From assembly GCF_000372885.1 (NCBI RefSeq), contig NZ_KB889967.1:248001-312000 (forward strand): a stretch of 64,000 bases of DNA, read 5' to 3'. Each line of letters begins with the position of its first letter. The stretch's first letter is position 1. Origin of the DNA: Methyloversatilis thermotolerans (lineage in GTDB: Bacteria; Pseudomonadota; Gammaproteobacteria; Burkholderiales; Rhodocyclaceae). The notes beneath the pieces were generated by a model that had not been told where the DNA came from, ran no database searches, and saw only the letters and a program-made list of their open reading frames with translations. Both the position numbers and the translations under genes were made by a program. Positions 7,201 to 36,064 of the stretch are shown one piece after another.

Positions 7201-10200
7201 GCCACGCACTTCGTGTTCGACACCAGCTACGGACAGCGCTGGTTCATCTGCCCGGACCGGCTCGCCAACTGCCGCTTCACCGGCAACGCCTATGTCGACC
7301 CGGCCACCGTGTTCTATCCGCGTCCGCGCGAAACCGGCGATCCGCTGAGCGCCAGCCCGACCTGGGACCGCGACGACCAGATAGGCTGGAACATCGATCT
7401 GCGCGGCGATGCCTCCAATCAGGATTCAGGTTTCTTCCCGATCTATGCCGGCGGCAAGGAAAACTATTACGCCGGCCAGAAGGCCTATTTCGTGCAGGAC
7501 CTCGGCGAGGTGAGGCAGGACTGGTATGTGGTCCAGCGCTACCAGGAGGTGTTTTCGGATCCGGCCGCGGTGGCCGCCGCCACGCCCACGGTTGCGATCG
7601 AAGGCGGCAATCTCGTCATCAGGACCGATGCCGGTCGCAATGAGGGCGGTCTGCTCAGCACGACGAACACGATGCAGATCGAAGGACTGACCGCCAGCCA
7701 TGTCAGCAGCTTCGCCAACACCTCGCTGCTGCTGGCCAGCCACGAGTACCGGCAGGAGGTGATCCGCAAGTACGGCTGTGCGACCGACGGCCTGGTCGGC
7801 AGCGTCTGCGACAAGCTGAACTGGCTCGGCAAGTCGTCCTATCTCACCGGCTACAGCGACACCGTGTGGCGCGATTTCACGCTGAGCGATGTGAGCCATG
7901 CCTCCGGTGTCAGCGGCACCGTGAAGGCGTTCGAAATCAAGGCCACGGTCGGCAACTTCACCAATACCGGCACCGGCAGCGGCGTGTCCACCGAGTCGCC
8001 GGTGATCGAAGGCGTGGTCGGCGCGCGCGGCATCGAGCCGGCACAGCGGCAGCAGGTCGCCGCGACCGGCCCTTCGGCCACCTCGCTCACACTGCCCGGC
8101 GGCAGCAACGGACGATTCGTCACTGCCCGCGATCCATCCGCCGGCTATCTGGTGGAAACCAATCCGCTGCTCATATCCTTCGACAATCCCTACCTCGGTT
8201 CGGATTACCTGATGCGACGACTCGGGCTGCAACCCGAGAACTACCTGCTGCGCTTCGGCGATGCCGCCTACGAGGCGCGGCTCATTCGCGAACAGGTGCA
8301 GGCGCAGACCGGCGCCGCGCTGCTGCGCACCGCATACAGCGACTACCAGCAGCAGTCCATCCTGATGGATAACGCGGTGGCGGAGGCCGCGCGCCTGCAG
8401 CTCAATCTGGGCACTGCGCTGAGCGCCGGACAAGTGGCGGCGCTGAAGCAGGACATCGTGTGGATGGTGAGCACCGAGGTGGCCGGCAAGACCGTGCTGG
8501 TGCCGGTGGTCTACCTCACCGATGCCACGCGTGCCGCCGGCAGCAACAGCCAGGTGCTGGCCGAGCGCGCAATGATCCAGGCGGACAGCTTCACCAACCG
8601 TGGCGGCGACATCAATGCCAACTCGCGACTGCAGATCGTGTCGCGCGGTGACCTGGACAATATCGGCGGCCTGATCGGCGGCGGCAATGTGTCGCTGCGA
8701 TCGGTGGCCGGCAGCATCAACAACATCACCGAAACGCGGCGTGTCGGCGACGACCGCAACTACTACACGGTGGCCGGCCCGCGCGGCGGCATCGTGGCGA
8801 GCGGCAATCTGCTGCTCGACGCCAACCAGGACATCAACATCACCGGGGCCGATGTGGTGGCCGACGGCCGCGCCGCGCTGATCGCCGGTCGCGACGTCAA
8901 TGTGACCGCGCTGGTGCTGGAAACCCGGAACGAGTACGGCACCTCGCGCAGCGGCGGCCTGAGCCGCGAGTCGTCCAGCGTGACGCAAACCGTGCAGTCG
9001 GCGAGCGGCGCGCGGGTGACGGGCGGTCAGGGCGTGCTGGTGGACGCCCGGCGCGATGTCGACGTCGCGGGCTCGGATGTCGACGGTGGCGAGGGGCTCG
9101 CATTGCTGCGCGCGCGCGAAGGCGATGTGACCATACGGTCGATCGAACTCACCAGCACCGCATCGGGCAGCGAGGAAAGGGAGGGCTTCTTCGCGGAAGG
9201 ACGCGCCAACAGCACCTCGGACGCCAGCAAGGGCACGCCGTTTTCGGCATCCGGCTTCACCGGCTACGAAATGAGCCGCAGCAGTCATGACTCGACCAGC
9301 GTGAGCAACGCCGGCAGCCGGGTCGGCGGCAGGGGCGTGGCGGTGGTCGCCGACAAGGGCTCGGTCACGCTGCAGGGTTCCGACATCATGGCTGGCGAAG
9401 ACGGCGCGCTGATCGATGCGGCGAAGGACGTCAATATCGTCGCCAGCTACGACCGCAGCGCAAGCCGCAGCAGCGCCGAGCAGCACCGCTTCGGCATTTC
9501 CGCCGATGCGAGCACGGAAGGCGTGATGGGTGGCCTCAAGACCCAGGGCGGCACGCTGGAAACCGAAAGCGGCAGTCGCAGCGCCAATACCAGCAGCATC
9601 CGTTCCGAAGGCGGCATTTCGGTGCGCGCGGGCGGCACCCTGAGACGCGAGGGCGCGCAACTCGACGCAGCGGGCAATATCGACATCGAAGCCGATCGCA
9701 TCGAGGATCGCGCCGCGCGCAACGAAACGAGCTATCGGGAGTCGGGCCGCACCTACGAGGCCGGCATATCGGCCGGCGTCACCTCCGGTCTCGGCGGCAC
9801 GGTGGCGGGCATCGCCAGCGGCGAAGCGAAACAGGTGAACATTTCTTCGCCGCAGTCGCAGGTGGTGATCGGTGGGTCCGGCGCCAGCTTTTCGGCCGGC
9901 GAAGACAGCAGCACGGCGGTGGTGACGCAGATCCGCGCCGGCGGCAACGTGACCGTGACGGCGAACAAGGACATCGTCGAAGAGGGCACGCGCTACCGTG
10001 CCGGCGGCGATATCGACATCGGTGCCCGGTCCTACGAGAACCGTGCGGCGGCCAATACGCGGCGCGCCGACAGTGACACGTCGAGCGCGAATTCCTCGCT
10101 CACGGTGGCGGTGAATGCAGCCTCCGAAGCCAGCGCCACGCTGACCGCGTCGGGCAGCAACGAGAAGCAGGGCAGTGCTTCGTCGCAGGCGGTGGTGGGG

Positions 10201-19784: not shown

Positions 19785-20536
19785 GTGGGAGCGGCCTCTG
19801 GCCGCGATGCGGCCTGAGCATGCCGCGGGCTTCGTTCGAGGCTGCATCGCGGGCAAGCCCGCTCCCACCAGACCCCGGCTCCGATGGCGGTTCGGGCGAG
19901 CTTTTGTGGGAGCGGCCTCTGGCCGCGACGCGGCCTGAGCACGCCGTGGGCCTCGTTCGCGGCTGCATCGCGGGCAAGCCCGCTCCCACCAGACCCCGGC
20001 TCCGATGGCGGTTCGGGCGAGCTTTTGTGGGAGCGGCCTCTGGCCGCGACGCGGCCTGAGCACGCCGTGGGCCTCGTTCGCGGCTGCATCGCGGGCAAGC
20101 CCGCTCCCACCAAACCCCGGGCTCCGATGCCGGTTCGGGCGAGTTCTTGTGGGAGCAGCCTCTGGCCGCGATGCGGCTGATGCGGGCCGCGGGCTTCGTT
20201 CGCGGCTGCATCGCGGGCAAGCCTGCTCCCACCAGACCCCGGGCTCCGATGCCGGTTCGGGCGAGTTCTTGTGGGAGCAGCCTCTGGCCGCGATGCGGCC
20301 TGGGCATGCCGCGGGCTTCGTTCGAGGCTGCATCGCGGGCAAGCCTGCTCTCACCAAACCCCGGGCTCCGATGGCGGTTCGGGCGAGCTTTTGTGGGAGC
20401 AGCCTCTGGCCGCGATGGGGCTGATGCGGGCCGCGGGCTTCGTTCGAGGCTGCATCGCGGGCAAGCCCGCTCCCACCAGACCCTGGCTCCGATGGTGGCC
20501 TGAGCGAGCTGTTGTGGGAGCGGCCTCTGGCCGCGA
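19785..20536. repeat. REP/BIME-like tandem array, seven phased units of 121-122 bp
   Basis: Unit starts (GTGGGAGC) are at 19785, 19906, 20027, 20149, 20271, 20393 and 20514, the last truncated. Each full unit carries two inverted palindromes facing each other: GTGGGAGC + GCGGCC-TCT-GGCCGC, and GCGGGC-AA-GCCCGC + GCTCCCAC. Both are hairpin-forming and share the outer GTGGGAGC/CGCGA ends, as in REP pairs (BIMEs) of pseudomonads. Long open frames across it on both strands are an artefact of the repeat. It fills the gap between the efflux operon and the riboswitch promoter. Confidence 0.9.
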
Positions 20537-20554
20537 CGCGTCATTGCATTCCGC

Positions 20555-20582
20555 TTGACCGGCGCTTTTCCGATCGCATACC
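20555..20582 (+). promoter_or_regulatory. candidate sigma-70 promoter of the cobalamin operon
   Basis: TTGACC at 20555-20560 is followed after 16 bp by CATACC at 20577-20582. It sits just after the last REP unit and just before the riboswitch aptamer, the expected position for the leader promoter. The -35 is good and the -10 is weak. Confidence 0.5.
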
Positions 20583-20595
20583 CTGTGCGGGCTTC

Positions 20596-20783
20596 AGGTG
20601 TCCCGCGCGGCGTGCGCTGCGCGGGGTGAAACGGGAAGCCGGTGCGCATCCATCGTCGATGGATGCAAGGCCGGCGCTGCCCCCGCAACGGTAAGCGAGT
20701 CGTAGTCCGTCACACGGCCACTGTGCGCAAGCACGGGAAGGCGGCGGACACATTCTCCCTCGCAAGCCCGGAGACCGGCCTGA
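20596..20783 (+). promoter_or_regulatory. cobalamin (B12) riboswitch
   Basis: The conserved blocks of the cobalamin aptamer occur in order: AGGTG near the 5' end, GGGTGAAACGGGAAGCCGGTG-like sequence around 20624-20644, GCTGCCCCCGCAACGGTAAGCG-like sequence around 20676-20697, GGGAAGG around 20734, and the B12 box AAGCCCGGAGACCGGCCT at 20764-20781. About 205 nt of leader follow before the first ATG. They include GCCGGC-N7-GCCGGC just upstream of the AGGAGA ribosome site (20978-20983), a plausible expression platform. By the known behaviour of the family, high cobalamin should repress the genes downstream. Confidence 0.92.
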
Positions 20784-20988
20784 TGCGCGGTGCCGAGCCT
20801 TTCACTGAAAGGATCGCGGCGCTGACGACCGATGGCTGCGGTGGGCGGCCAGGGGGCGCATGCCGTCGTGTCCGTCCAGCCGTCTCGCGGCCGGGCGTCC
20901 TCTTCCTGTGCGTATCCTGCGCAATCCTTGCGCGCCATCGGGTTTTCCATCCAGCCGGCGGGTGTTGCCGGCATGACAGGAGATCCGC

Positions 20989-21792
20989 ATGCGTTTCGCA
21001 CGTACCACACTATCCATCGCCGCCACGCTGGCGCTGTCCGCGCCGGCATTCGCCGGACCTTTCGCACCGGCGGCCGGCCAGAGCGGTTCCACAGCCATCC
21101 ACAAGGACAGCGCACTGTTCGCCGGCTGGGCCACCGGCTGGGAGGACTACACCGTAAGCGCGTCGACTTCGGCGGTCGCCAATAGCTGGCGCACGCCCGA
21201 AAAGGCGCTGGGCAAGGCGGTCGGCGATTCCTACGACATCGTGTCGCTGGGCAATGGCGGCAGCATCACGCTCACCTTCGATGGCTACATCTTCGACGGA
21301 GAGGGCGCCGATTTCGCGGTGTTCGAGAACAGCTTCAGCGCCGCCTTTCTCGAACTCGCTTTCGTCGAAGTGTCGTCCAACGGCATCGACTTCTTCCGCT
21401 TCCCGACCTATTCGTTCACGCCCTCGCCGGTCAATGCCTTCGGTGCGGTCGATCCGACCAATATCGACGGCTTTGCCGGCAAGTACCAGCAGGGCTGGGG
21501 CACGCCCTTCGACCTGTCGCTGCTGGCCGGCACCGCCGGGCTGGATATCCAGCGCGTCACGCACATCCGCCTGGTCGACGTAGTGGGCAACGGCAGCGAG
21601 TACGACAGCTTCCCGGCTGCCTACGGCGGCCCGAACAAGATCTACGACCCGTACAACACGACGGGCAGCCAGGGCTTCGACCTCGATGCCATCGGCGTCA
21701 TCCATCTGGCCGCGGCAGTGCCCGAGCCGTCGCAGATCGCGCTGTTCGCGGCCGGTCTGGGTGTGCTCGCGCTGCGTCGCCGCCGCGTCTGA
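20989..21792 (+). CDS. PEP-CTERM surface protein, first gene of the B12 operon
   Basis: Secreted protein of 267 residues. The signal peptide (MRFARTTLSIAATLALSAPAFA) is followed by a beta-rich domain with GNGGSITLTFDGYIFDGEG, DFAVFENSF, LELAFVEVSSNGIDFFRFP and FDLDAIGVIH. It ends in a PEP-CTERM sorting tail: VPEPSQ, a hydrophobic helix, then RRRRV. A good AGGAGA site precedes the ATG. From memory, this beta-domain is common in Bacteroidetes 'cell surface protein' entries encoded near cobalamin TonB receptors, which would fit the riboswitch here. The tail predicts processing by an exosortase (not in this window) and display or release at the surface. Direct B12 binding is a hypothesis; no ligand residues can be identified. 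Confidence 0.85.
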   Translation: MRFARTTLSIAATLALSAPAFAGPFAPAAGQSGSTAIHKDSALFAGWATGWEDYTVSASTSAVANSWRTPEKALGKAVGDSYDIVSLGNGGSITLTFDGYIFDGEGADFAVFENSFSAAFLELAFVEVSSNGIDFFRFPTYSFTPSPVNAFGAVDPTNIDGFAGKYQQGWGTPFDLSLLAGTAGLDIQRVTHIRLVDVVGNGSEYDSFPAAYGGPNKIYDPYNTTGSQGFDLDAIGVIHLAAAVPEPSQIALFAAGLGVLALRRRRV

Positions 21793-21872
21793 GCGCCGCG
21801 CTGTCGTTCTTCCCCGATCATTTTCCACACGAAGCGGGTCGCGCCTCGCGCGGCCCCGAGAGGATACCGTCC

Positions 21873-22670
21873 ATGAATACCTTCGTCCGTTCCGTGCTCG
21901 TCACCGGCCTTTCCATGCTTGCCGGCCAGGCGCATGCCGTCACCGTCACTTTCGACGAACTGCCCCTGGCCGCCGAAAGCCACTACTTTCCCGAAGTCGC
22001 CACCACCTTCCGCAGCGGGCCGGCGAGCTTCAACTTCAACTACACCGAGTGGTACCCGGGTTGCTGCCACAGCGGCTGGGTGTATTCCAACCGCACCGAC
22101 ACCACGACGGCCGGCTATCTGAACCAGCACAGCGCCTTTGCCGGGAGCGGCGCCGACGGCTCGGCCAGTTACGCCATCGCCTACTACTCCCTGAGCGGCG
22201 ATCCGGCACCCGTCATCACCTTCGACAGCGCGGTCGTGGTCGCCAGCGCCGCCTTCACCAACACCACCTATGCCGCGCTGTCCATGCTCGATGGTGACGG
22301 CTTCGCGAAGAAATTCGGCGGTGCGAGCGGCAACGACGAGGACTGGTTCAAGCTCACCGTGACCGGCTGGAACGGCACCGCCCGGACTGGCGCGCTGGAC
22401 ATCTACCTCGCCGACTATCGCTTTGCCGACAACAGCCTGGATTACATCCTGAGCGACTGGACGACTTTCGACCTGAGTGCGCTGGGCAGCGTGACCGCGC
22501 TGGACTTCGCGCTGTCCTCCAGCGACACCGGTGACTGGGGCATGAATACGCCGGCCTATTTCGCGCTGGACAGTCTCAGCGTGAGCACCGTGCCTGAACC
22601 GGCGCAGGCCGCGCTGCTGCTGGCCGGTCTCTCGCTGGTCGGTGCCGCGTCCCGCCGCCGTCCGGGCTGA
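21873..22670 (+). CDS. DUF4465-like PEP-CTERM surface protein
   Basis: Secreted protein of 265 residues, second gene behind the cobalamin riboswitch. It has a signal peptide (MNTFVRSVLVTGLSMLAGQAHA), then a beta-sandwich-like domain with an early cysteine pair (YPGCCHSGW), DGDGFAKKFGG, GNDEDWFKLTVTGWNG, IYLADYRF and NTPAYFALDSLSV. This pattern matches my recollection of DUF4465. It closes with VPEPAQ, a hydrophobic stretch and RRRPG, a PEP-CTERM tail. An AGAGGA site lies about 10 nt before the ATG, and the gap to the previous gene is 80 nt with no strong terminator. It is probably co-expressed with the TonB receptor that follows, and is a candidate substrate-capture or receptor-accessory protein. 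The function is not demonstrated. Confidence 0.85.
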   Translation: MNTFVRSVLVTGLSMLAGQAHAVTVTFDELPLAAESHYFPEVATTFRSGPASFNFNYTEWYPGCCHSGWVYSNRTDTTTAGYLNQHSAFAGSGADGSASYAIAYYSLSGDPAPVITFDSAVVVASAAFTNTTYAALSMLDGDGFAKKFGGASGNDEDWFKLTVTGWNGTARTGALDIYLADYRFADNSLDYILSDWTTFDLSALGSVTALDFALSSSDTGDWGMNTPAYFALDSLSVSTVPEPAQAALLLAGLSLVGAASRRRPG

Positions 22671-22671
22671 G

Positions 22672-24765
22672 GTGTCGTACCGTCGGTTCCCGCGCCGCGT
22701 GATGCGGTGCGGGCGCGCGCTCGGCCTGTTGCCGGGGCTGATCGCCGCCTGTGCGCCGCTGGCGTCTGCGCAGCAGGGTTCCATCCTGCTGGCGCCGGTG
22801 CCGGTGCGTGCGGAGCGGATGAGCGAGCTTTCCGCCGAGGGACACAGCACGACCGAGATCGATGCTGAAGACATCGAACGTTCGGCCGCGACCAGCGTGG
22901 CCGAGCTGATCGCGCGCGAAGCGAACGTGAATCTGCAGAGCCTGTTCGGCCACGACAAGCGCGCTTCGCTCGATCTGCGCGGCATGGGCGAGACGGCGAT
23001 GAGCAATGTCATCATCCTGGTTGATGGCGTGCGCCTGAATGAAATCGACCTGTCGGGCAGCGACCTGTCCACGCTCGCCCTGTCGCGCATCGAGCGCATA
23101 CGCATCGTGCGCGGTGGCGGCGCGGTGCGGGTCGGGGATGGGGCGGTCGGCGGCGTCATCGACATTACGACGCGTCGCCCCGAGGCCGGTCGCGTCACGG
23201 GCTCGATGCGCGCGGAAGCCGGGGCGTATGGCACGCGCAAGCTCGACCTGTCGGTCGCTGCCGGCAACGGGCCACTGTCGCTGGCACTGCGCGCCGCGAG
23301 GTCCGACAGCGACGGCTTCCGCCGCAACGGCTATCTGTATGCGCGCGACGGATCGGCGGAACTGCGCTTCACGCCGGATGCGCCGGTATCCGCCTTCGTG
23401 CGCATCAGCCGGCATGTCGATGAATACGGTCTGCCCGGGCCGCTGCCGGCCGCCGTGCTGTCGCAGCGCGCATCGGCGCGCCGGGCGACGGCGAACCCCG
23501 ACGACGGCGGTCGCACCGACGACATGCAATATGTGGCGGGTGGCGACATCGACTTCGGCCGCTTCGGCGTGAGCCGGCTGCAGGCCAGCGCGCGCCGGCG
23601 CGACAATCCCTTCGTCGCAAGTTGCGACGGCCCGCCATGCAGCGAAGCGCCCATCCATTCGTCGCGTAATGCGCTGCAGTTCGATCACCAGATCGACATT
23701 CCGTCCATGGTCGAAGCCAGGCCGCATCGCATCGGCATCGGCGTGAACAACTGGAATGGCGATTACGCGCGCTACAGCGGCGATCCCGCCACGGTGGGCA
23801 CGAACCGGGTGAGCGGCGATGTGCACAGCCACGGCGGCTATGCCGATCTGTCTCTGCGCGTCGCGGAACGCTGGACCGTGCATGGCGGGGCGCGCATCGA
23901 CCGCTTCCGCTCGCGGCGGGTGACCGAAACCCTGCGCCAGCCGACCCTGGCCATACCGGTGCCACCCTTCGTCATGCCCTGCGCAAGTTGCCCGCCGGTC
24001 TGGACAGCAAGCGAAGCGACGTCCGACGGCCGTTGGCGCAACCATGCGCGCGAACTGGGCATGCGCTGGGAAGCCAGCGACGCGCTGTCGCTGCACTTGA
24101 GCACGACGCGGCATTTCCGCAGCCCGAACATCGACGAACTCGCGCTGGCCGAAGCCACGCTGCGGCCCCAGCACGGCAGCACGACGGAAGCCGGGTTCAC
24201 CTACCGCCCCGGTGCGCGGCGGGAACTGGCGCTGTCGGTTTTCCGCATGCGCATCGAGGACGAAATCCATTACGGCCCGGAACAGCTCGCCGGCGGCGAA
24301 TCGCGCAACCGCAATCTGCCGGTGCCCACCGTGCGGCATGGCCTGGAGTTCCAGCTCCGCTGGCCGCTCGCGAACCGGCTGGAGGGTGCCCTGAACTTCG
24401 GCTATGTGAGGCCGCGCCTGCAGGGGCTGGATATGGACGTGCCGTCGGTGCCGCGGCGCACCGCCAGCGCGCGGCTGAACTGGCAGATGTCGGACAGTCT
24501 GGACCTCACGCTCGCCGTGCGTCACGCATCGAGTTCAGCCGACGGCAATGCGGTGGATGCGAGCCAGACCTTTGCCCGGCTCGCATCCTGGACCGTGGCG
24601 GACGCAGGCATGCGCTGGGCGCCGGCCGGCCTGCACGGCAGACCGGTGGTCACACTGGCGATCAACAACCTGTTCGACCGCGCCTACGCCACCAAGCAGT
24701 ACAACGGCAGCGTCTATCCCATGCCGGACCGACACTTCATGCTTGGCTGCAACACCAGTTTCTGA
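22672..24765 (+). CDS. TonB-dependent outer-membrane receptor, probable cobalamin uptake (BtuB-like)
   Basis: Gated outer-membrane porin of 697 residues. The chosen start is a GTG one nt after the previous stop; an in-frame ATG at 22702 also leaves a complete signal peptide (ending LASAQQ). The TonB-box region (ILLAPVPVRAER) is followed by a plug domain with SLDLRGMGETAMSNVIILVDG and RIRIVRGGGAVRVGDG. The 22-strand barrel has two extracellular-loop cysteine pairs (CDGPPC and CASC) and a C-terminal Phe (CNTSF). Position behind a cobalamin riboswitch with no other transporter in the operon points to corrinoid uptake. Sequence alone would not separate it from other catecholate/corrinoid receptors. 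The periplasmic and inner-membrane BtuFCD partners are not in this window. Confidence 0.88.
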   Translation: MSYRRFPRRVMRCGRALGLLPGLIAACAPLASAQQGSILLAPVPVRAERMSELSAEGHSTTEIDAEDIERSAATSVAELIAREANVNLQSLFGHDKRASLDLRGMGETAMSNVIILVDGVRLNEIDLSGSDLSTLALSRIERIRIVRGGGAVRVGDGAVGGVIDITTRRPEAGRVTGSMRAEAGAYGTRKLDLSVAAGNGPLSLALRAARSDSDGFRRNGYLYARDGSAELRFTPDAPVSAFVRISRHVDEYGLPGPLPAAVLSQRASARRATANPDDGGRTDDMQYVAGGDIDFGRFGVSRLQASARRRDNPFVASCDGPPCSEAPIHSSRNALQFDHQIDIPSMVEARPHRIGIGVNNWNGDYARYSGDPATVGTNRVSGDVHSHGGYADLSLRVAERWTVHGGARIDRFRSRRVTETLRQPTLAIPVPPFVMPCASCPPVWTASEATSDGRWRNHARELGMRWEASDALSLHLSTTRHFRSPNIDELALAEATLRPQHGSTTEAGFTYRPGARRELALSVFRMRIEDEIHYGPEQLAGGESRNRNLPVPTVRHGLEFQLRWPLANRLEGALNFGYVRPRLQGLDMDVPSVPRRTASARLNWQMSDSLDLTLAVRHASSSADGNAVDASQTFARLASWTVADAGMRWAPAGLHGRPVVTLAINNLFDRAYATKQYNGSVYPMPDRHFMLGCNTSF

Positions 24766-24984
24766 GCGCGTCGCGGCGCCGTCCGGAATACCCCATTTTT
24801 TGCGACGAGCCTCGTGTGCATTGCACCCGGCGGCATGTCGCGCTTCAGGAATGTATGGTCAATGTCCGGTCGCCATGCGATGCTGTCTGTCGGCATGCGC
24901 TTGTGAAGCGGACGTCCTGGTGCGTCTGTTCCTTCGTTCCGGGGCCGCCTGCATACCAGTACCCGCTTTTCCCGGACCCCGTTC

Positions 24985-26343
24985 ATGACCGATTTTCCCC
25001 GTTCCGAGCCGGCGCATGTGGATCTGCCGTCCAGGTTCATCGACCGTCTGGTACCGACCTTCAACCGCTTCCTCCACATTGAGGCAGCCGGCGGCGCTGT
25101 CCTGCTTGTGTGCACCGTGCTGGCCCTCATCCTGGCCAACTCCCCGTGGGCCACGCCATTTGCCGGCCTGTGGGACAGCCGCCTCGAAATCAGCCTGGGG
25201 CCGTTCGAATTCGGACGCTCGCTGCGCGGATGGGTGAATGACGGGCTGATGACATTGTTTTTTTTCCTTGTGGCGCTGGAGCTCAAGCGCGAGCTGGTGC
25301 TCGGTGAAATGCGCAATCCGCGCATGGCGGCGCTTTCGGTTGCCGCAGCACTGGGTGGCATGCTGGTGCCTGCGACGCTTTATCTTCTTCTGCAGTGGGG
25401 GCAGCCCGGACAGCACGGTTGGGGCATCGTGATGGCGACGGATACCGCCTTCGTCATTGCCTGTCTGGCCCTGCTCGGAGCGCGCATACCGCACAGTCTG
25501 CGCGTGTTCATGCTCTTTCTGGCCATCGTGGACGATATTGGCGCCATCCTGGTGGTGGCGGTCGGCTACAGCAGCCATCTCGACCTGCGGGCGCTCGGAG
25601 CCGCCGTGCTTTGTCTCGTCGTACTGCGCATGCTCGCTCACATCGGAATACGAAGCTTGCCCATCTTCGTCGCCGTCGGCTGCGCAACCTGGGTTGCAGT
25701 CGATGCGTCGGGTCTGCACGCTACTGTCACCGGCGTGATCCTGGGCCTCATGACGCCAGCCCGACGCTGGGTCAGCGACAGTCGGCTCTATGCCATCCTG
25801 AGCCAGGTCGTCGCCCATCCGGCGGTCGATCTGGGCAGTGGGGACACCCGTGATCGCAGTACGCTGCAGCTTGCCGAGATTGCTGCACGGGAATCGCTGT
25901 CGCCACTCGAACGTCTCGAAATGGCGCTGCATCCCTGGGTCAGCTTCTGCGTCATGCCTGTATTTGCGCTGGCCAATGCCGGTCTGGTGCTGTCGCGCGA
26001 GGCGGTTGTCCAGCCGCTCGCGATTGCCGTATTCGTAGGGCTCGCACTTGGCAAGCCGGTAGGCATTCTTCTTTTCAGCTGGCTAGCGCTGCGTTCCGGT
26101 TTCGCCATCCGCTCGCCCGATCTGCTGTGGGGCCGGCTTGCGGGCGGCAGCCTTCTCGCCGGCATCGGCTTCACCATGGCGTTGTTCATTACCAACCTGG
26201 CCTTGTCCGGACCGCTGGTCGACAGCGCGAAGGTCGGTATCTTCATGGCATCGGTCACCTCGGCGGTGGCCGGCATCTCGCTTCTCGCCTGGCATTCGGC
26301 GCGTCGTCCCGACGGGGCCGGGCGTTCGTCGCTCGATGACTGA
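24985..26343 (+). CDS. nhaA: Na+/H+ antiporter NhaA
   Basis: Electrogenic sodium/proton antiporter of 452 residues. It exports Na+ in exchange for H+, for pH and salt homeostasis. Family signatures are present: HIEAAGGAVLL at the N-terminus, LMTLFFFLVALELKRE, MATDTAF, and the essential aspartate pair in LAIVDDIGAI (D183-D184, the equivalents of E. coli D163-D164). It is longer than E. coli NhaA (388 aa), mainly from a short N-terminal extension, an insertion near residues 270-305 (GSGDTRDRSTLQLAEI) and a C-terminal tail. Such longer NhaA forms are common. It stands alone, 219 nt after the TonB receptor. Confidence 0.96.
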   Translation: MTDFPRSEPAHVDLPSRFIDRLVPTFNRFLHIEAAGGAVLLVCTVLALILANSPWATPFAGLWDSRLEISLGPFEFGRSLRGWVNDGLMTLFFFLVALELKRELVLGEMRNPRMAALSVAAALGGMLVPATLYLLLQWGQPGQHGWGIVMATDTAFVIACLALLGARIPHSLRVFMLFLAIVDDIGAILVVAVGYSSHLDLRALGAAVLCLVVLRMLAHIGIRSLPIFVAVGCATWVAVDASGLHATVTGVILGLMTPARRWVSDSRLYAILSQVVAHPAVDLGSGDTRDRSTLQLAEIAARESLSPLERLEMALHPWVSFCVMPVFALANAGLVLSREAVVQPLAIAVFVGLALGKPVGILLFSWLALRSGFAIRSPDLLWGRLAGGSLLAGIGFTMALFITNLALSGPLVDSAKVGIFMASVTSAVAGISLLAWHSARRPDGAGRSSLDD

Positions 26344-29228: not shown

Positions 29229-32200
29229 CTAATCCGCGCGTTCCGAGATGACGATGGTGGTGGTTTGCGTGCCTATCGTCACCACGACCTGGACCGGGAA
29301 AGCTCCATCGGGTACGGCCGCGGCAGAGAAGCTGCGCGTGGCAGGCACATAGCGCAGCCAGCCGGGCAACGCACCGCCCCCCGCAAGCGACACCTTGACC
29401 TCGGCGTCCTTGCCCGACGGTACACCCTCGAACACCTGATCGGGCAAAGGGAAACTGAAGCCGGTGCCGCTGGTCGCCGTTTCCCTGGGCACGGCGACGG
29501 CAATCACGCCCGACACTTTCGCCGAAGGCGACTGGACGACCGACACCTCGATCGACTGGCTCGTGCCCGGCACAGGCACCTTGAATGAGGTCGGCGGCGC
29601 AGTACTGGGCGTGTCCGGCGCGGAAGATTCACCGCTCCGCTTCGCCGGCTCACTCGCGGACAGTGTCAATGGCGGCGGGCTTGTTTCAGGCTTGGGGGAG
29701 GGCGCTACCGGGGGCGGTGCCGGAGGTGCCGGCGGCTCCAGAGGCGCGGTGATGCTGAGCACGCCACCCGCGTAGGCCACTGCGTAGCCGAGGCCATTGC
29801 TCAGATTGCCGGTCGTCGTTATTGCATGCTCTCCGATCGTGGTCGCCGTCCGAGCCGGCCCCGCCACCATCACGGTGCCGCTGAAAACGCTGCTGCTGTC
29901 GCCATTGGCCAGATCGTTGTAGGTGAAGGGGAAGCTGCCTTCATAGGTCTTTGCGTCGTAGGTCTTGCTCACATCGGTGGCGCGCACAGTCACTGTCGGC
30001 TGTTCGCGATAGATCGCATTGATGCCGGCGGTGAGCGCGGTCGCATAGTTTGTCGCTGCTTCATCGCTGTTGTAGCGGAATCGGCCACTGCCACTGCCGA
30101 CCATCGCGGTCAGGCCGCTGCTGCCGCCGATGCGGCCACTGTACAGAGTGGCAAAGCCTCCATTGCCCACACTTACACCGGCGCCGTCGCTCACGACGAT
30201 GTCGCCGCCACTGGCCGTGCCGGCCGCACTGTCCTTGCCGGCGATGAGACGCACCGCACTGGCGGTGCTGTCCGTGGTGCTGACATTCCTGGCCAGCGTG
30301 AGATTGCCGCTCAAGGTTGCGACATCCACGGTGCTGCTCGTCGTGATGCCATCGACCCCGCCCACGCTGCCGATCGTGAGCGCGCCGCCATTGTTGAAGG
30401 CCAGAGAACCGCTGCCGATATCTGCCGCCAGGGTTCCGACGGCATGAGCGGTGGCGCCATCGAGCTGATAGTTGGCGCCGCTGCCATTCAGCAGCAGATA
30501 GCTTGCCGTGATGGTGCCGTTGCCGCTGACGTTCTGGCCGCTGCCAGCGGTCAGCGTCAAGGTTTGGCCGCTGGCATCCAGATTGCCGTCGAGGGCGATC
30601 GCGCCGTTGCTGATGAAGGCTGTGGTGTCATTGAGCGTGGTTGCCCCGCCCACGGTAATCGTTCCGCTGGTCGCATCACCTATGGTGATGCTCGAGAAGC
30701 CATTGGCAAACGTGTTGGCGAAGTCATTGCTGCTGAGCGCCAGCGTACCTGCGCCGCCGGAAATTCCAATGGTCGTGCCGGCCGTGCGCGGCTTGATGGC
30801 AAGCGCCCCGCTGCTCACGACGCGCATGACATTGTCGCCACCGAAATTGAAGGTGTTGCCGGACAGGGTGATGTTGCCGGTCATGCTGCTGGAACCGATG
30901 CGGCTGCCAGTGCCGCCGGTGTAACGGATGTCGATGTTGTCGGCACCGGTGCCCCCGGTGCCGGTGAATACGATGCTGGCCGCGCCGAGTGACTCGTAAC
31001 GGCCTCCTTCGATCAGAATGCCCCAGCAGCCAGTGCTCGTACAGGTGCCGCCCGTGCCGGTAACGTTCAGCGTGCCGGTCACCCCGCTCCCCATCCTGAA
31101 CACGCCGCCACCCCGCGCATTGACGCCGATGTTGTAGCTGTTGCCACTGCCTCCGGTACCGTTGATGGTCATTGTGCGGTTGCTGCCGCTCAGAATTTCC
31201 ACCAGCGCATTGTTGTCGAGCTTGACACCTTCCTGATTGTCGTTGGTACCCGACGTGGAGCCCTGACCGGTCATCGAAATATTGCCGCCACCCGTCGTGC
31301 GAACAATCGCACTGGCATCGACAAGAATGCCCACCCGCCCGCCGGCGCTGCCTGCGCCCGTGCCATGGATGCTGATATCGCCACTGGTGCTTTGCACCAG
31401 GGCCGAACTGCCGGTAATCAGCACACCGATGCCGCCGCTGCTTGCACCCGTGCCACGCAGGGAGATCGTTCCTGTTCCCGCATTCACCTGCGCGTCGAGT
31501 ATGCGGATACCTGCGGCATAGGTGGCGTTGCCGGTGGCATTGCCGCTGCCCGGCGTGCTGCCGCCCCCCATGGTGACATGTCCACCGTTGGTGGTGATGC
31601 TGGATCCGGTGTCGAGATTGATCGCGCCACCGTTCGAGTCACTGTCTGCATTCAGAACGACATTCAGCCTGTTGCTGCTCGATGTGATCGACTTGCCGCT
31701 CGCGAGCGTCACATTGTCGGTCGCTTTCAGCGTCAGGGTGGCATCGTTACCTGCGCTCTTGATGATGTTCTGATCGACACCTACCGACCCCGCTGACGCG
31801 GTGACCGTCACATTGCCTGTTGCCGTGATGCCGCTGGTGCTGCCCGCAGTGCCGATCGACAGGCCATTCGCATCGACGAAGTTTACGGCGCCCGTGCTGG
31901 CAGCCAGTGTCGTGACGTCATTCAAGCTGCGGGTGAGCGAGAAGTCGCCGCCGGTGCCGGTCAGCGACAGCGCATTGGCGATGATGCTGCCGCTGCTGGT
32001 CTGAGTGGCCGCCCCGGTGCTGATCAAGGACACATTGCCCGTGGTGTTGATGAAGGCATTTTCCAGATTCATGCTGTTGGCGTTGAGCACGATATCGCTG
32101 CCATATGTGGTCGTGCCATCCGTTCCGACATACAAACGACCGCCATTGGCCTGGGCGATGCCGCGTGCCGCATTGCCGTTGTTGTCGCCGGTACCGTTCA

Positions 32201-34337
32201 GCGTGATGGGTCCCCCCCCGGTGGAATAGATGTAGCTGGTGCTGGTTTCGTAGTTGATGCCGGCATTGCGGCTCTGGCTTGCGGTTCCGCCACCGGTGCC
32301 GGTCAGGGTGATGGCGCCGTTCTGGGTGATGACGGTGGCGGCCGTTCCGCTGGCGATGTACATGTTGATACCGGGTGCAGTGCCGGAAGTCGGAGAGCCG
32401 CCCACCCCGACGACCGTGATCGTGCCGCTGCCCGTGGTCTGCATGATGCTGTTGAACGAGAAATCGACACCGATCGGCGTCGCCGCACCCGAACCCGACC
32501 AGCCCTGGCCGCGCACCAGGATATTGCCGCCCGCGGCATCGAGGTTCACGTTGTCGAGGAACACGCCACGGTCACGATTACCCGTGTTGGCGCTACCGGT
32601 GGCGTAGCCGGTGTTCACATCCAGGCCACCGCTCAAGGTGATGTGGCCGCCGTTGCTGAGAATGCTGGCACCGGTATTGAGGGAAATGTTGCCGCCCTGG
32701 GTTGCGTCGCTGTCACTGTGATACACCACATTCAGCGCACCGCTGGTCGAACTCACACTGACCCCCGCGTTCTGCACGATGTCCCGATGGGCTTTCAGTG
32801 TCAGCGTTGAGGCACCGCCGCTGGTCTTGGTGATGTTGCTGGCGATGGTGATGTCACCACCGCCCTGGCCATCTCCTTCGGTACCGCCGGTCTGTATGGT
32901 CACATTGCCCGAAGCCAGCGCCGTGGCGATATCGCTGGCAAGAATCACGCTGGTGCTGTTGGCGGTGTAATTGGAAGAGAAGGCCGTGCCACTGGCACCC
33001 GCGGCGGCGATCGTGATGTTGTAGGGGTCAAGCAGCCAGTTGCCGTATTGGCCTGCGGTCGCATGTGTATCGATCGTGATACCCGCGACATCGAGCCAGT
33101 GTCCCGATGTTTCGATCACCCCGCCATTCCCGCCATGGGCACCGCCGTGGACGGCGATCGAACCATGGGCGCGGGTCTGACTCCGGTCGTTGTGAATGTC
33201 ACTCCACAGCACCACCTTGCCGCCATCACCTTGCGTGATCGCGCTGGCATCGATGCTCGCACCCTGGGACTGCGTGACCGTCACGGCCTGACGCAATGTG
33301 CCGCCACCCTGCCAGTCGCCGCCGACCAGTACCGTGCCACCGCCGGTGGCACCTCTGGCTTCGATACGGCTGCCTGCGTCGAGACGGATGTCGTCGCCTT
33401 CCAGCACCACGCGTCCGCCCTTGCTCACGAGGCTGGTGGCGGAAAGAGTGCCACTGTTGCGCACGACGCTGCCTTGCAGTTGATTGGCTGCATTGGCCGA
33501 AAGAATGATGAGGCCGCCGGGTGCTTCCACCGCGTTGCCGTTCTCCACCAGCGCGCGCAGGGTGCCGGGCTCGACGCGGACATTCGACAGACCGTTGCCG
33601 TTGAACTGGACGTCAAAGGCGTCTCCGGCGGCGAGTGCCACCGTGCCAAGCTGGGCGACGATCAGGCCGTTGTTGCGCACCTCCGGGGCCAGCAGCGCGA
33701 TATAGCCGCCCATGCCGCTCTTCAGGGTGCCCTCGTTGACGATGCTGCCGCTTGCGCCATCGCGCGTGAAGCGGTCATTCCCCGCCATGAAATCGGTCGT
33801 GCTGATGTTGTGGGTGGTGACCAGCAAGCCACCCACCTCGACGCTCGCGCCGGGCGCGAAATACACGCCATTCGGATTGGTGAAGAACACCTGGCCGGTG
33901 GCGTTGATGCGCCCGAAGATCTGGCTCGGGTTGCTGTCCAGCACGCGATTCAGCGTGACGCTGCTGGCTGAGGGCTGATTGAAGTTCACCGTTGCGGCCG
34001 CACCGACGTTGAACGTGTTCCAGTCAATCGCCGCGCGCTGCGAGCCCTGGTCTATCGTCATCACCGCACCGCTCTGCGAAATCGACGCTTGCCCGGCAGT
34101 CACCGTTCCGCCGGTGGGCAACTGGGTGGCGCCGGGCGTCTGCGCGGTGGCGTTGCCCAGGGCGAGCGCCATGGAGGCCGCAAGCGCAGTCAAGCGAGCC
34201 GGCGGCAGGTGACGGAGAGGGAGAGCGGCGAGCCCGCGCTGATGCCGGTTCCCCGCACGGCGCATGCGCAGGCGTTCAGAAACGGCAATGCCGGCATGCG
34301 TCAACGCATTCCGGATCAATTGAAAATTCTTGGTCAT
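29229..34337 (-). CDS. second TPS exoprotein (haemagglutinin-like, with MBG-type and Ig-like C-terminal domains)
   Basis: Secreted adhesin-like protein of 1,702 residues. The start MTKNFQ gives a long extended signal region (about residues 1-66, ending ALGNATAQ), and upstream in-frame codons belong to the transporter gene. The TPS domain (about 70-310) carries NPNG at residues 154-157. The body is low in charge and very rich in Gly/Thr/Ser/Asn, with short repeating units such as NITLSG, GGHIT and TGNVT, typical of a parallel beta-helix stalk. Near the C-terminus is an MBG/YDG-like domain (KTYDAKTYEG), then a Pro-rich hinge (PPAPPAPPP) and a final Ig/cadherin-like module (LPGWLRYVPATRSFSA). 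It differs from the first exoprotein in length and tail, so the two are not recent duplicates. Confidence 0.92.
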   Translation of the reverse strand: MTKNFQLIRNALTHAGIAVSERLRMRRAGNRHQRGLAALPLRHLPPARLTALAASMALALGNATAQTPGATQLPTGGTVTAGQASISQSGAVMTIDQGSQRAAIDWNTFNVGAAATVNFNQPSASSVTLNRVLDSNPSQIFGRINATGQVFFTNPNGVYFAPGASVEVGGLLVTTHNISTTDFMAGNDRFTRDGASGSIVNEGTLKSGMGGYIALLAPEVRNNGLIVAQLGTVALAAGDAFDVQFNGNGLSNVRVEPGTLRALVENGNAVEAPGGLIILSANAANQLQGSVVRNSGTLSATSLVSKGGRVVLEGDDIRLDAGSRIEARGATGGGTVLVGGDWQGGGTLRQAVTVTQSQGASIDASAITQGDGGKVVLWSDIHNDRSQTRAHGSIAVHGGAHGGNGGVIETSGHWLDVAGITIDTHATAGQYGNWLLDPYNITIAAAGASGTAFSSNYTANSTSVILASDIATALASGNVTIQTGGTEGDGQGGGDITIASNITKTSGGASTLTLKAHRDIVQNAGVSVSSTSGALNVVYHSDSDATQGGNISLNTGASILSNGGHITLSGGLDVNTGYATGSANTGNRDRGVFLDNVNLDAAGGNILVRGQGWSGSGAATPIGVDFSFNSIMQTTGSGTITVVGVGGSPTSGTAPGINMYIASGTAATVITQNGAITLTGTGGGTASQSRNAGINYETSTSYIYSTGGGPITLNGTGDNNGNAARGIAQANGGRLYVGTDGTTTYGSDIVLNANSMNLENAFINTTGNVSLISTGAATQTSSGSIIANALSLTGTGGDFSLTRSLNDVTTLAASTGAVNFVDANGLSIGTAGSTSGITATGNVTVTASAGSVGVDQNIIKSAGNDATLTLKATDNVTLASGKSITSSSNRLNVVLNADSDSNGGAINLDTGSSITTNGGHVTMGGGSTPGSGNATGNATYAAGIRILDAQVNAGTGTISLRGTGASSGGIGVLITGSSALVQSTSGDISIHGTGAGSAGGRVGILVDASAIVRTTGGGNISMTGQGSTSGTNDNQEGVKLDNNALVEILSGSNRTMTINGTGGSGNSYNIGVNARGGGVFRMGSGVTGTLNVTGTGGTCTSTGCWGILIEGGRYESLGAASIVFTGTGGTGADNIDIRYTGGTGSRIGSSSMTGNITLSGNTFNFGGDNVMRVVSSGALAIKPRTAGTTIGISGGAGTLALSSNDFANTFANGFSSITIGDATSGTITVGGATTLNDTTAFISNGAIALDGNLDASGQTLTLTAGSGQNVSGNGTITASYLLLNGSGANYQLDGATAHAVGTLAADIGSGSLAFNNGGALTIGSVGGVDGITTSSTVDVATLSGNLTLARNVSTTDSTASAVRLIAGKDSAAGTASGGDIVVSDGAGVSVGNGGFATLYSGRIGGSSGLTAMVGSGSGRFRYNSDEAATNYATALTAGINAIYREQPTVTVRATDVSKTYDAKTYEGSFPFTYNDLANGDSSSVFSGTVMVAGPARTATTIGEHAITTTGNLSNGLGYAVAYAGGVLSITAPLEPPAPPAPPPVAPSPKPETSPPPLTLSASEPAKRSGESSAPDTPSTAPPTSFKVPVPGTSQSIEVSVVQSPSAKVSGVIAVAVPRETATSGTGFSFPLPDQVFEGVPSGKDAEVKVSLAGGGALPGWLRYVPATRSFSAAAVPDGAFPVQVVVTIGTQTTTIVISERAD

Positions 34338-34375
34338 ACTCGTATCCAGAGAAGCGACTTGCAATGCGGACGCAA

Positions 34376-36064
34376 TCAGAAGGGCATGCTGGCGGTCAGC
34401 CAGAAGCGATCCTTGTGCAGCGTGCCGTCCTGATCGAGGCCCGTGCTGGTGGCATTGGGGTTGTCGCCGATGCGGCGTGCCCAGGTGAGCCGGAGGTTCA
34501 AGCCCTGGCTCGACTGCCAGCCCAGCGCGAGACCCGCGCCGCGCAGACTGAAGCTGTTCACGGCGGCCGCGCCGGTGAACCTGTTGTTGCGATTCACCGT
34601 GACATGGCCCCAATCGTAGAAGCCGCTGAGCAGGAAGGCCTCGTTCAGCTTCCAGCGCAGCTCCAGATTGACCACCTTGCCTTCCGCGCCACCGCCTTCA
34701 TTGAGCGGATAGGCGCGCACGCCATTCAGGCCACCCAGGTAGAACTTCTCGGATGAATCGAGGTTCTTGCTGGCCTCCTGTCCCGACAGCATGGCCAGAA
34801 AGGACAGGGTCGGGGTCAGAGACTGCTGGCGCGCCAGCGTATAGCGCAGCTTTTCATAGCGACCGGCGGTGCGTGTGGTGGTGGCATCGGCCGCACGATT
34901 GGGCGAGCCATCGAGATCGAGATCGCCGTGGGTAAACAACAGGGTGGCGCTGTTGGCGCCACCGCCACCCAGGCCATCGAACAGATTGCCGCTCAGACCG
35001 ACGGTGCCGGACCTGGCGCCGTAACGGCTGGATATGGCGCCGTCCGAAGTGTTTTCGAAGGTCTTCTGGTCGTAGTTCATGACCAGATACAGGTTCTGCC
35101 GACGCGAGCGGATCAGTGGATACGTCGCATCCAGGCCCAGGGTGCTGGACTTGCCGCGGGCGTTCAGTGCGGAGAATTCGGGCGAAACCAGGGAATAGTG
35201 CAGCGTCGAACCATTCACACCCAGGCGCAGGCCGTCATGGCCGATCGGTACGCTGTAGCCCACGCGTGCATAGTCGAGTCCCTGACTGTGAATGGCGTGG
35301 ATACTGACCAGATCCCCGATGCCGAAGGGGCTGGCTATTCCCACGCTGGCGGCAATGCGCTCGCGGCCTGTCGAGCGCATGCCGGCATTGTCAATGCCGA
35401 CGTCGCCGATCACCAGCGGTTCATCGGTCAGCTTGAGGACAAGATCGGTCTCGCCCTCGCCAGCGCCGGCGCGCAGCGCGCCGCTGGCGGCCACTCCCGG
35501 AAGATCGTCGACCAGCAGGATGGCGCGCTCCAGCGCCTCTGCATTGAGCGGTTCCCCTTTTTTCTGGCGTGACTCGAGAGACGACAAGGCGTAATCGAGC
35601 TTCAACCGTGTGGGCTCTGCGCCTTCCACCTGCACCTTGCCAAACCTGGCTTCGTCGATGCGGATGATGACCGTGCCGTCGGTCACATCCTGCCGCGGCA
35701 GATAGGTGCGGACCACCCAGCCCGCGTCGCGATAGGCGTCGGCAACCGCCGCGGCAACCGCCTGCAGTTGTTCGAAGCTCAGTGGGCGGTTCAGATAGCC
35801 GGCGACGACGGCCTGCAATTGCGCGTCGCCGAGCAGCGTATTGCCCTCGAAGCGGAAGGTGTTGACCGAAACGGTGCTTGTTGCCGTGGAGGGCGTCACC
35901 GGCGGATCACCACGCAATTCGGGCGCGGCCTGGCCAGGCAGCCGGTTCAACCGGTCCTGATCAAGCTGCTGGCGCAGCGAACCCGCATCCGGTGCGGTTT
36001 GTGCGTGTGCGAAACAGCTGATGACCGAAAAGCAGATCGCGCGTTGTATGAACGTCCTATTCAA
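34376..36064 (-). CDS. second TPS outer-membrane transporter (ShlB/FhaC family)
   Basis: TpsB pore of 562 residues encoded just before (38 nt) its exoprotein on the minus strand. I chose the TTG at 36064 because GGAGA lies 6 nt upstream and it gives a clean signal peptide (NRTFIQRAICFSVISCFAHA); the frame is open to 36130 without a better site. The POTRA region (about 50-210) shows VNTFRFEGNTLLGDAQLQ and GWVVRTYLPRQDVTDG. The barrel has YLGGLNGVRAYPLNEGGG, the conserved VRAY/VRGY loop 6 motif, and ends in Phe (TASMPF). It secretes the exoprotein at 29229-34337 by the known TPS mechanism. Confidence 0.94.
   Translation of the reverse strand: MNRTFIQRAICFSVISCFAHAQTAPDAGSLRQQLDQDRLNRLPGQAAPELRGDPPVTPSTATSTVSVNTFRFEGNTLLGDAQLQAVVAGYLNRPLSFEQLQAVAAAVADAYRDAGWVVRTYLPRQDVTDGTVIIRIDEARFGKVQVEGAEPTRLKLDYALSSLESRQKKGEPLNAEALERAILLVDDLPGVAASGALRAGAGEGETDLVLKLTDEPLVIGDVGIDNAGMRSTGRERIAASVGIASPFGIGDLVSIHAIHSQGLDYARVGYSVPIGHDGLRLGVNGSTLHYSLVSPEFSALNARGKSSTLGLDATYPLIRSRRQNLYLVMNYDQKTFENTSDGAISSRYGARSGTVGLSGNLFDGLGGGGANSATLLFTHGDLDLDGSPNRAADATTTRTAGRYEKLRYTLARQQSLTPTLSFLAMLSGQEASKNLDSSEKFYLGGLNGVRAYPLNEGGGAEGKVVNLELRWKLNEAFLLSGFYDWGHVTVNRNNRFTGAAAVNSFSLRGAGLALGWQSSQGLNLRLTWARRIGDNPNATSTGLDQDGTLHKDRFWLTASMPF

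Follow-up and report, generated by a model that had tools for sequence, protein, structure and literature searches.

Most of what has been established about surface-assisted capture of vitamin B12 comes from gut Bacteroidetes, where the proteins concerned are lipoproteins. For Bacteroides, capture by BtuG and BtuH followed by import through the receptor has been proposed (PMC10404256; this and all other papers given by PMC number are cited from partial texts). The DUF4465 family is a further source of binders: its known B12 binders include BtuJ1 and BtuJ2 of B. thetaiotaomicron, eight distant members were shown to bind B12 (PMC13398666), and binding has been published for several phyla (PMC13398666, PMC12751083). 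DUF4465 genes near TonB receptors have already been reported, and such genes often lie near those of other DUF families that resemble accessory B12 proteins, which the part of the paper cited here does not name (PMC13398666). We analyzed a stretch of 64,000 nucleotides of Methyloversatilis thermotolerans (contig NZ_KB889967.1, positions 248,001 to 312,000; hereafter the window), in which a cobalamin riboswitch is followed by the genes for two secreted proteins with PEP-CTERM tails, P1 and P2, and for a TonB-dependent receptor. From sequence comparisons and structural models, we consider it likely that this locus is an operon for cobamide uptake across the outer membrane, repressed by B12 and equipped with exosortase-sorted surface binders. 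Its features are as follows.

20579..20797, + strand: cobalamin riboswitch aptamer, RF00174 (cmscan 110.5 bits, E 8e-27, model positions 1-189)
20798..20988, + strand: leader from the aptamer to P1 (191 nt)
20989..21792, + strand: P1, predicted secreted protein of 267 amino acids with a remotely BtuH-like domain (residues ~22-242) and a PEP-CTERM tail (243-265); signal peptide by eye
21715..21783, + strand: PEP-CTERM signal of P1 (PF07589, E 1.3e-5)
21873..22670, + strand: P2, DUF4465 (BtuJ-type) protein of 265 amino acids with a PEP-CTERM tail (PF14717, PF07589); signal peptide by eye
22545..22559, + strand: NTPAY in P2, the published B12-binding HI-loop motif (motif from PMC13398666)
22587..22661, + strand: PEP-CTERM signal of P2, residues 239-263 (PF07589, E 5.6e-6)
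22672..24765, + strand: TonB-dependent outer-membrane receptor (GTG start at 22672 or ATG at 22702; Plug and barrel)

An earlier, sequence-only reading had placed a riboswitch, two PEP-CTERM genes, and a TonB receptor on one strand with gaps of 1-80 nt, and this description holds. The RF00174 match covers the full model length, scores 110.5 bits against a gathering cut-off of 31.5, and is the sole gathering-level Rfam match within the window. PF07589 identifies both tails, each above the Pfam cut-off, and Plug and barrel domains identify the receptor. The gaps between genes are 80 nt (P1-P2) and, taking the GTG start, 1 nt (P2-receptor); that between riboswitch and P1 is 191 nt. The genome has two exosortase genes and 75 PEP-CTERM matches, so that two adjacent PEP-CTERM genes would be unremarkable alone; it is the conservation described below that lifts their pairing above chance. 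A scan of positions 20400-25100 found neither terminator-like nor promoter-like sites, and control by the riboswitch is more likely to be translational than to act via a terminator, as no terminator-like site is present in that region. The fold of the leader (20798-21010) was no more stable than that of shuffled sequences (z -0.53).

P2 is a member of the DUF4465 family (PF14717, E 1.6e-52, 178.9 bits against a cut-off of 25). Its closest solved relative is 9hmu (phmmer E 3.3e-30), the B12 complex of D5EK51 of Coraliomargarita (PMC13398666). The sequence GMNTPAYF in P2 contains the NTPAY motif with the B12-binding tyrosine, and N225, T226, P227, and Y229 are invariant in all nine aligned P2 proteins. 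From its sequence, we infer that P2 binds cobamides tightly. As for its tail, IPR013424 is the database entry that we take to represent PEP-CTERM. This entry was counted in 88 of 824 family members and IPR026444 in 229, as C-terminal extracellular targeting motifs (PMC12751083). By contrast, PMC13398666 gives more than 70% of DUF4465 proteins as predicted lipoproteins and the remainder as having periplasmic targeting signals.

P1 outside its tail matched no Pfam family at E ≤ 0.1, and a set of 70 P1 domains compared with Pfam at E ≤ 0.01 matched PEP-CTERM alone, in 21 members. The NCBIfam model of the LIC_13355 family lipoprotein (NF033170) weakly matched 56 of the 70 domains (E ≤ 0.01); P1 itself scored 19.7 bits, far under the cut-off of 120. 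When the profile of the 70 domains (A3) was run against the Protein Data Bank (PDB), the best of four matches at E ≤ 10 was chain 8blw_B of BtuG1 (E 0.012), the other three being unrelated. The match spans residues 373-472, largely inside the C-terminal BtuH domain of BtuG1. A3 also had matches in 27 of 198 Bacteroidota genomes, and the weakest of these (L131, E 6.8e-5) is a BtuH protein, with E values of 1.4e-67 to 8blw_B and 3.6e-57 to BtuH2 (7biz_A). A series of Bacteroidota proteins (L111-L130) falls between P1 and BtuH, at E 3.2e-20 to 1.5e-10 against the P1 profile. Since a search of the 198 genomes with only the L131 BtuH domain as query retrieved nothing but that domain itself, the BtuH alignment was limited to three rows (L131, BtuH2, and the BtuH domain of BtuG1). 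Aligning A3 to it with hhalign gave a probability of 91.5 (E 8.5e-7, 48 columns). The score in a local rerun was 52.6; the best of 150 column shuffles reached 23.0, and the reversed alignment 14.0. The control comparisons gave a probability of 0.3 and a score of 16.2 for A3 with DUF4465, and a probability of 0.4 for DUF4465 with BtuH.

Structural modeling pointed the same way. AlphaFold2 produced a model of the P1 domain on A3 (70 sequences) with a predicted local distance difference test score (pLDDT) of 96.3 and a predicted template modeling (TM) score of 0.93; an earlier model from 10 sequences had been poor (pLDDT 56.5). Foldseek against the PDB ranked BtuG1 8blw_B and BtuH2 7biz_B and 7biz_A as the first three relatives of the model (E 3.0e-4 to 1.2e-3). 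The residues of BtuH2 that contact B12 are Gln333, Asn399, His476, Tyr510, Trp511, and Trp577 (PMC8941943). We mapped them onto the alignment by hand, the chain index plus 100 giving the correct residue type for all six. Asn399, a contact to the B12 phosphate, is equivalent to Asn114 of P1, and asparagine occupies this position in 70 of 70 P1 domains; Gln333 is approximately equivalent to a glutamine in 36 of 70, a correspondence by motif only. No cysteine was seen by eye in the N-terminal stretch of P1. Together, these comparisons suggest that P1 is a remote relative of the BtuH B12-binding domain that probably binds cobamides tightly; we call it BtuH-like and not BtuH, as it has a PEP-CTERM tail instead of a surface-lipoprotein signal. 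P1 may also be one of the DUF families noted near DUF4465 genes.

The riboswitch, receptor, and DUF4465 set recurs in other genomes and phyla. The sequence-only reading had named a lack of co-occurrence outside this strain as grounds for its rejection, and the outcome did not refute it. Counting the window genome, 4 of the 274 class genomes searched and 7 of the 250 from the order have P1, and DUF4465 is found in exactly the same seven genomes of the order (4 of 121 genera). The distribution is patchy, as seven other genomes of the window's family, covered in both searches, lack P1 and DUF4465. We retrieved nine further P1 loci (L014-L022). A riboswitch over the Rfam cut-off was present in eight of them, the exception being L020, which begins at a contig end. 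All nine have a receptor, which is partial in L020 and, in L021, Pfam-confirmed with weak similarity to the window receptor; P2 was found in eight, L022 being cut.

For a second sample, a scan with a 10-row P1 alignment returned at least 534 relatives, from which the best 80 were kept by P1 similarity alone; these loci are not phylogenetically independent. They mix metagenome-assembled genomes and isolates (e.g., Methylobacillus arboreus, Aquabacterium soli, Rhodopirellula europaea, and Roseimaritima sediminicola), and L014, L017, L019, and L021 of the first sample were judged to be the same contigs as L034, L040, L046, and L042, respectively. Riboswitches were sought genome-wide for 79 of the 80 loci and assigned to the loci by coordinates. 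A same-strand upstream riboswitch was confirmed at 60 of the 80 best P1 loci, 22 of them within 260 nt, although the confirming profile was built from 44 of the same stretches and is partly circular. The 79 genomes, of about 4 Mb each, contain 130 riboswitches, and we estimate that a same-strand riboswitch no more than 6 kb upstream would be expected by chance at about 0.1% of loci. A strict regular expression for the riboswitch, which hit 19 of 80 loci, missed two loci confirmed by cmscan and was left out of the counts. At 54 loci, a receptor is encoded on the same strand no more than 5 kb away, as detected with a profile that admits any similar TonB receptor and not B12 receptors only. With a neighbor profile that had the tail trimmed and P1 excluded, a same-strand DUF4465 was found within 6 kb (same open reading frame [ORF] included) at 59. 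The opposite-strand controls gave 4 receptors and 0 DUF4465 among the 80 loci. All three elements are present at 40 loci, and at least one at 74.

Near the receptor and P1 in L021 (7476-8666; = L042), L054, and L089, we also observed a protein with the look, by eye, of a BtuG-like beta-propeller lipoprotein. The three are relatives by phmmer, and Pfam gives a sub-threshold Reg_prop match alone. Their presence suggests that BtuG-type parts exist outside Bacteroidetes.

In six distinct sequences, P1 and P2 share a single frame:

L015, 7570-9219: fused P1-P2 ORF
L016, 7205-9064: fused P1-P2 ORF
L018, 9969-11663: fused P1-P2 ORF
L019 (= L046), 7264-8958: fused P1-P2 ORF
L028, 6761-8581: fused P1-P2 ORF
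L052, 6785-8488: fused P1-P2 ORF

At the junction, the PEP-CTERM signal of P1 (VPEP, a hydrophobic stretch, and an arginine cluster) is followed by a signal-peptide-like stretch, recognized by eye, and then by P2. A hydrophobicity scan gave this stretch a peak of its own in L015, L016, and L019 and detected no separate peak at the junction in L018, L028, and L052. The fused chain could possibly be a polyprotein from which exosortase and signal peptidase release two sorted proteins, an idea that the scan half supports. P1 is also joined to one DUF4465 in L062 (509 residues) and to two or three in planctomycete ORFs of 1118-2044 residues (L070, L077, L079, L080, L082, L090, and L094, with L080 and L090 truncated where their contigs stop). 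These giant ORFs sit downstream of a cobalamin riboswitch and have the appearance of multivalent B12 traps. That fusion has occurred repeatedly supports a joint function of P1 and DUF4465.

Classified by a simple text pattern, the tails of the 80 P1 ORFs comprise 39 of PEP-/VPxP-type and 12 ending in GCF[IL], besides 7 giant ORFs, 21 other tails, and 1 cut. The PEP-/VPxP-type class is mostly beta- and gammaproteobacterial, with some planctomycetes and verrucomicrobia. Tails of the GCF[IL] class (L043, L059, L061, L065, L067-L069, L071, L072, L074, L075, and L083) were seen mostly in Desulfobacterota/deltaproteobacteria, and perhaps represent another C-terminal sorting signal. In L106, one Bacteroidota P1 that was scanned, the tail is of type IX (PF18962, 4e-13). 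Hence, the lineages have the capture module in common and differ in the sorting tail. Homology, linkage to the riboswitch, and joint occurrence in several phyla support the proposal of the sequence-only reading that exosortase-type signals take the place of lipoprotein signals in surface-assisted B12 capture.

On balance, we lean slightly towards the broader view that P1 is an unannotated, cross-phylum, BtuH-related B12-capture domain that forms with DUF4465 a two-part B12 trap. Its tails would differ by lineage: beta- and gammaproteobacteria, along with some planctomycetes and verrucomicrobia, would use PEP-CTERM types, Bacteroidota type IX, and Desulfobacterota GCF[IL]; other planctomycetes would have chains that reach ~2,000 residues and hold two or three DUF4465 copies. 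Some betaproteobacteria would make both parts as a single chain with an internal PEP-CTERM and signal-peptide-like stretch, and its cleavage would yield two proteins, each sorted separately.

The receptor has a TonB Plug (E 7.8e-19) and barrel (E 1.1e-32), and its best NCBIfam match is a siderophore-receptor model, with 151.7 bits against a cut-off of 223.5. It had been described as BtuB-like. The plug, the barrel, and the B12 context agree with this, but the TonB-B12 score does not, and with the siderophore-receptor model nearer, the receptor is BtuB-like only loosely, by context and not by sequence. Elsewhere in the genome (L003), a second cobalamin riboswitch is followed by a receptor that reaches 395.5 bits with TonB-B12, also below the cut-off of 599.7, and then by BtuC- and BtuD-like genes (each scoring below the threshold of its model), CobA, and CobB; CobQ directly precedes the operon. 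With this second riboswitch-receptor operon, that of P1, P2, and the receptor is not the genome's sole uptake route.

Several results weigh against our interpretation. The window receptor is under the cut-offs of both B12-receptor models (121.6 against 599.7 bits for TIGR01779 TonB-B12), and the other riboswitch operon holds the better-scoring BtuB candidate together with late cobamide-synthesis genes. No confirmed upstream riboswitch was found at 20 of the 80 P1 loci; some of these lie near contig ends, and L088, L089, L093, and L100, among others, have 7 kb of upstream DNA. For P1, the direct PDB search with the 70-row profile reached BtuG1 only at the E value of 0.012 given above, and PDB searches with single P1 or the 10-row profile yielded no relative of note. 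The profile alignment of P1 with BtuH spans 48 columns, and the TM-scores in Foldseek, 0.46-0.48 by query length, are modest; the relation is therefore remote. Among the six BtuH2 contacts, only Asn399 is clearly conserved, and no position in P1 could be assigned to His476, Tyr510, Trp511, and Trp577. Pectin-binding, discoidin, and CBM32 folds follow BtuH closely in Foldseek, from E 1.2e-3.

This last result, with the single clearly conserved contact residue and the ties of PEP-CTERM proteins to exopolysaccharide (PMC1569441), would fit a discoidin/CBM-like P1 that serves as anchor of the complex on matrix polysaccharide and leaves P2 as the sole B12 binder. We regard such a role as rather unlikely, given that the profile comparison, run against BtuH and DUF4465 only, picks BtuH, that the 70 P1 domains match no Pfam family but PEP-CTERM at E ≤ 0.01, and that the asparagine at the BtuH phosphate contact is invariant. 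The low receptor score could instead mean that the operon imports another corrinoid, e.g., cobinamide, or a related complex, and complements the second riboswitch operon: its receptor has diverged from BtuB (121.6 against 395.5 bits), and a riboswitch-btuB-like operon beside late cobamide-synthesis genes is already present. However, the conserved asparagine of P1 is the counterpart of a contact to the nucleotide-loop phosphate, and cobinamide has no such loop. Those DUF4465 proteins that were carried forward in PMC13398666 also bound cyanocobalamin, and we judge import of another corrinoid to be unlikely. Finally, with 75 PEP-CTERM matches in the genome, the tails might mark biofilm proteins, and P1 and P2 might be structural proteins of the matrix or floc that merely share a transcript with the receptor. 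The function of the DUF4465 family and the linkage to riboswitch and receptor also in lineages where P1 has other tails make this very improbable.

A cobamide uptake operon with exosortase-sorted binders, which we prefer, would work as follows. When B12 is scarce, the riboswitch would permit synthesis of P1, P2, and the receptor. P1 and P2 would be exported through the Sec pathway, and exosortase would cut off their PEP-CTERM tails, leaving the mature proteins presumably at the cell surface or in extracellular polysaccharide. There, P2 with its BtuJ/DUF4465 fold, and probably P1 with its BtuH-like fold, would bind cobamides tightly and pass them to the TonB-dependent receptor, to be pumped into the periplasm.

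The gene next after the receptor encodes an NhaA antiporter (24985-26343), and we saw no reason to count it in the operon. Immediately upstream of the riboswitch lies a tandem array (19785-20540) with a 122-bp unit, 6.2 copies, and 92% matches; similar sequence, noticed by eye, also precedes the operon of the second riboswitch (L003, ~6480-7050), and the array is probably a dispersed genomic repeat. A very large ORF on the minus strand of the window (29229-34613) has, judged by eye from its translation, the look of a two-partner-secretion haemagglutinin-type surface protein.

The families of P2, the riboswitch, and the receptor are already known, and published counts cover the C-terminal targeting tails of DUF4465 proteins. 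In searches of open-licence papers, judged largely from titles and the opening lines of abstracts, we found no description of P1, its relation to BtuH, P1-P2 fusions, or an exosortase-sorted B12 operon. PMC12530212 and PMC7726332, considered as prior accounts of the operon, are unrelated in the parts cited. The locus had been put forward as a different way of B12 capture. This stands for the sorting signals, which do differ; it does not stand for the proteins, as P2 is DUF4465/BtuJ and P1 a remote BtuH relative, not unrelated stand-ins. As relatives of Bacteroidetes B12-binding proteins, they probably bring no new binding chemistry. Our analysis now extends related modules, under riboswitches of one kind, to several phyla, proteobacteria and planctomycetes among them, many with a different sorting system. 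It gives two PEP-CTERM proteins, and a widespread domain matched by no Pfam model here, a specific ligand hypothesis, and the role and final location of exosortase substrates become a testable question.

The locus resembles the cobamide loci of B. thetaiotaomicron, in which BtuB is accompanied by the lipoproteins BtuG, BtuH, and BtuJ: a riboswitch, a TonB receptor, DUF4465, and a BtuH-type domain are found per locus. It differs in the PEP-CTERM tails on both proteins, in having no BtuG in the window operon, and in its proteobacterial host, and the BtuH-like domain of P1 is remote and without PKD domains. P2 belongs with D5EK51, BtuJ1, and BtuJ2 in the DUF4465/IPR027828 family and shares the NTPAY loop, but has a PEP-CTERM tail where BtuJ1 and BtuJ2 are lipoproteins. 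P1 is perhaps of the same superfamily as the LIC_13355 family lipoprotein (NF033170), to which it has a weak match only. The canonical proteobacterial BtuB-BtuFCD system also combines a riboswitch with a TonB receptor, and this genome has a riboswitch with BtuB-, BtuC-, and BtuD-like genes elsewhere (L003); the canonical system is without surface capture proteins, however, and the window receptor has diverged. A partial parallel outside B12 uptake is the zinc exoprotein ZepA of Anabaena, likewise a PEP-CTERM exoprotein that aids the supply of a scarce nutrient, for which docking on a TonB-dependent receptor was raised as a hypothesis by its authors (PMC10957091). ZepA differs in its ligand, zinc, in its control by Zur, and in being a different protein (PMC10957091).

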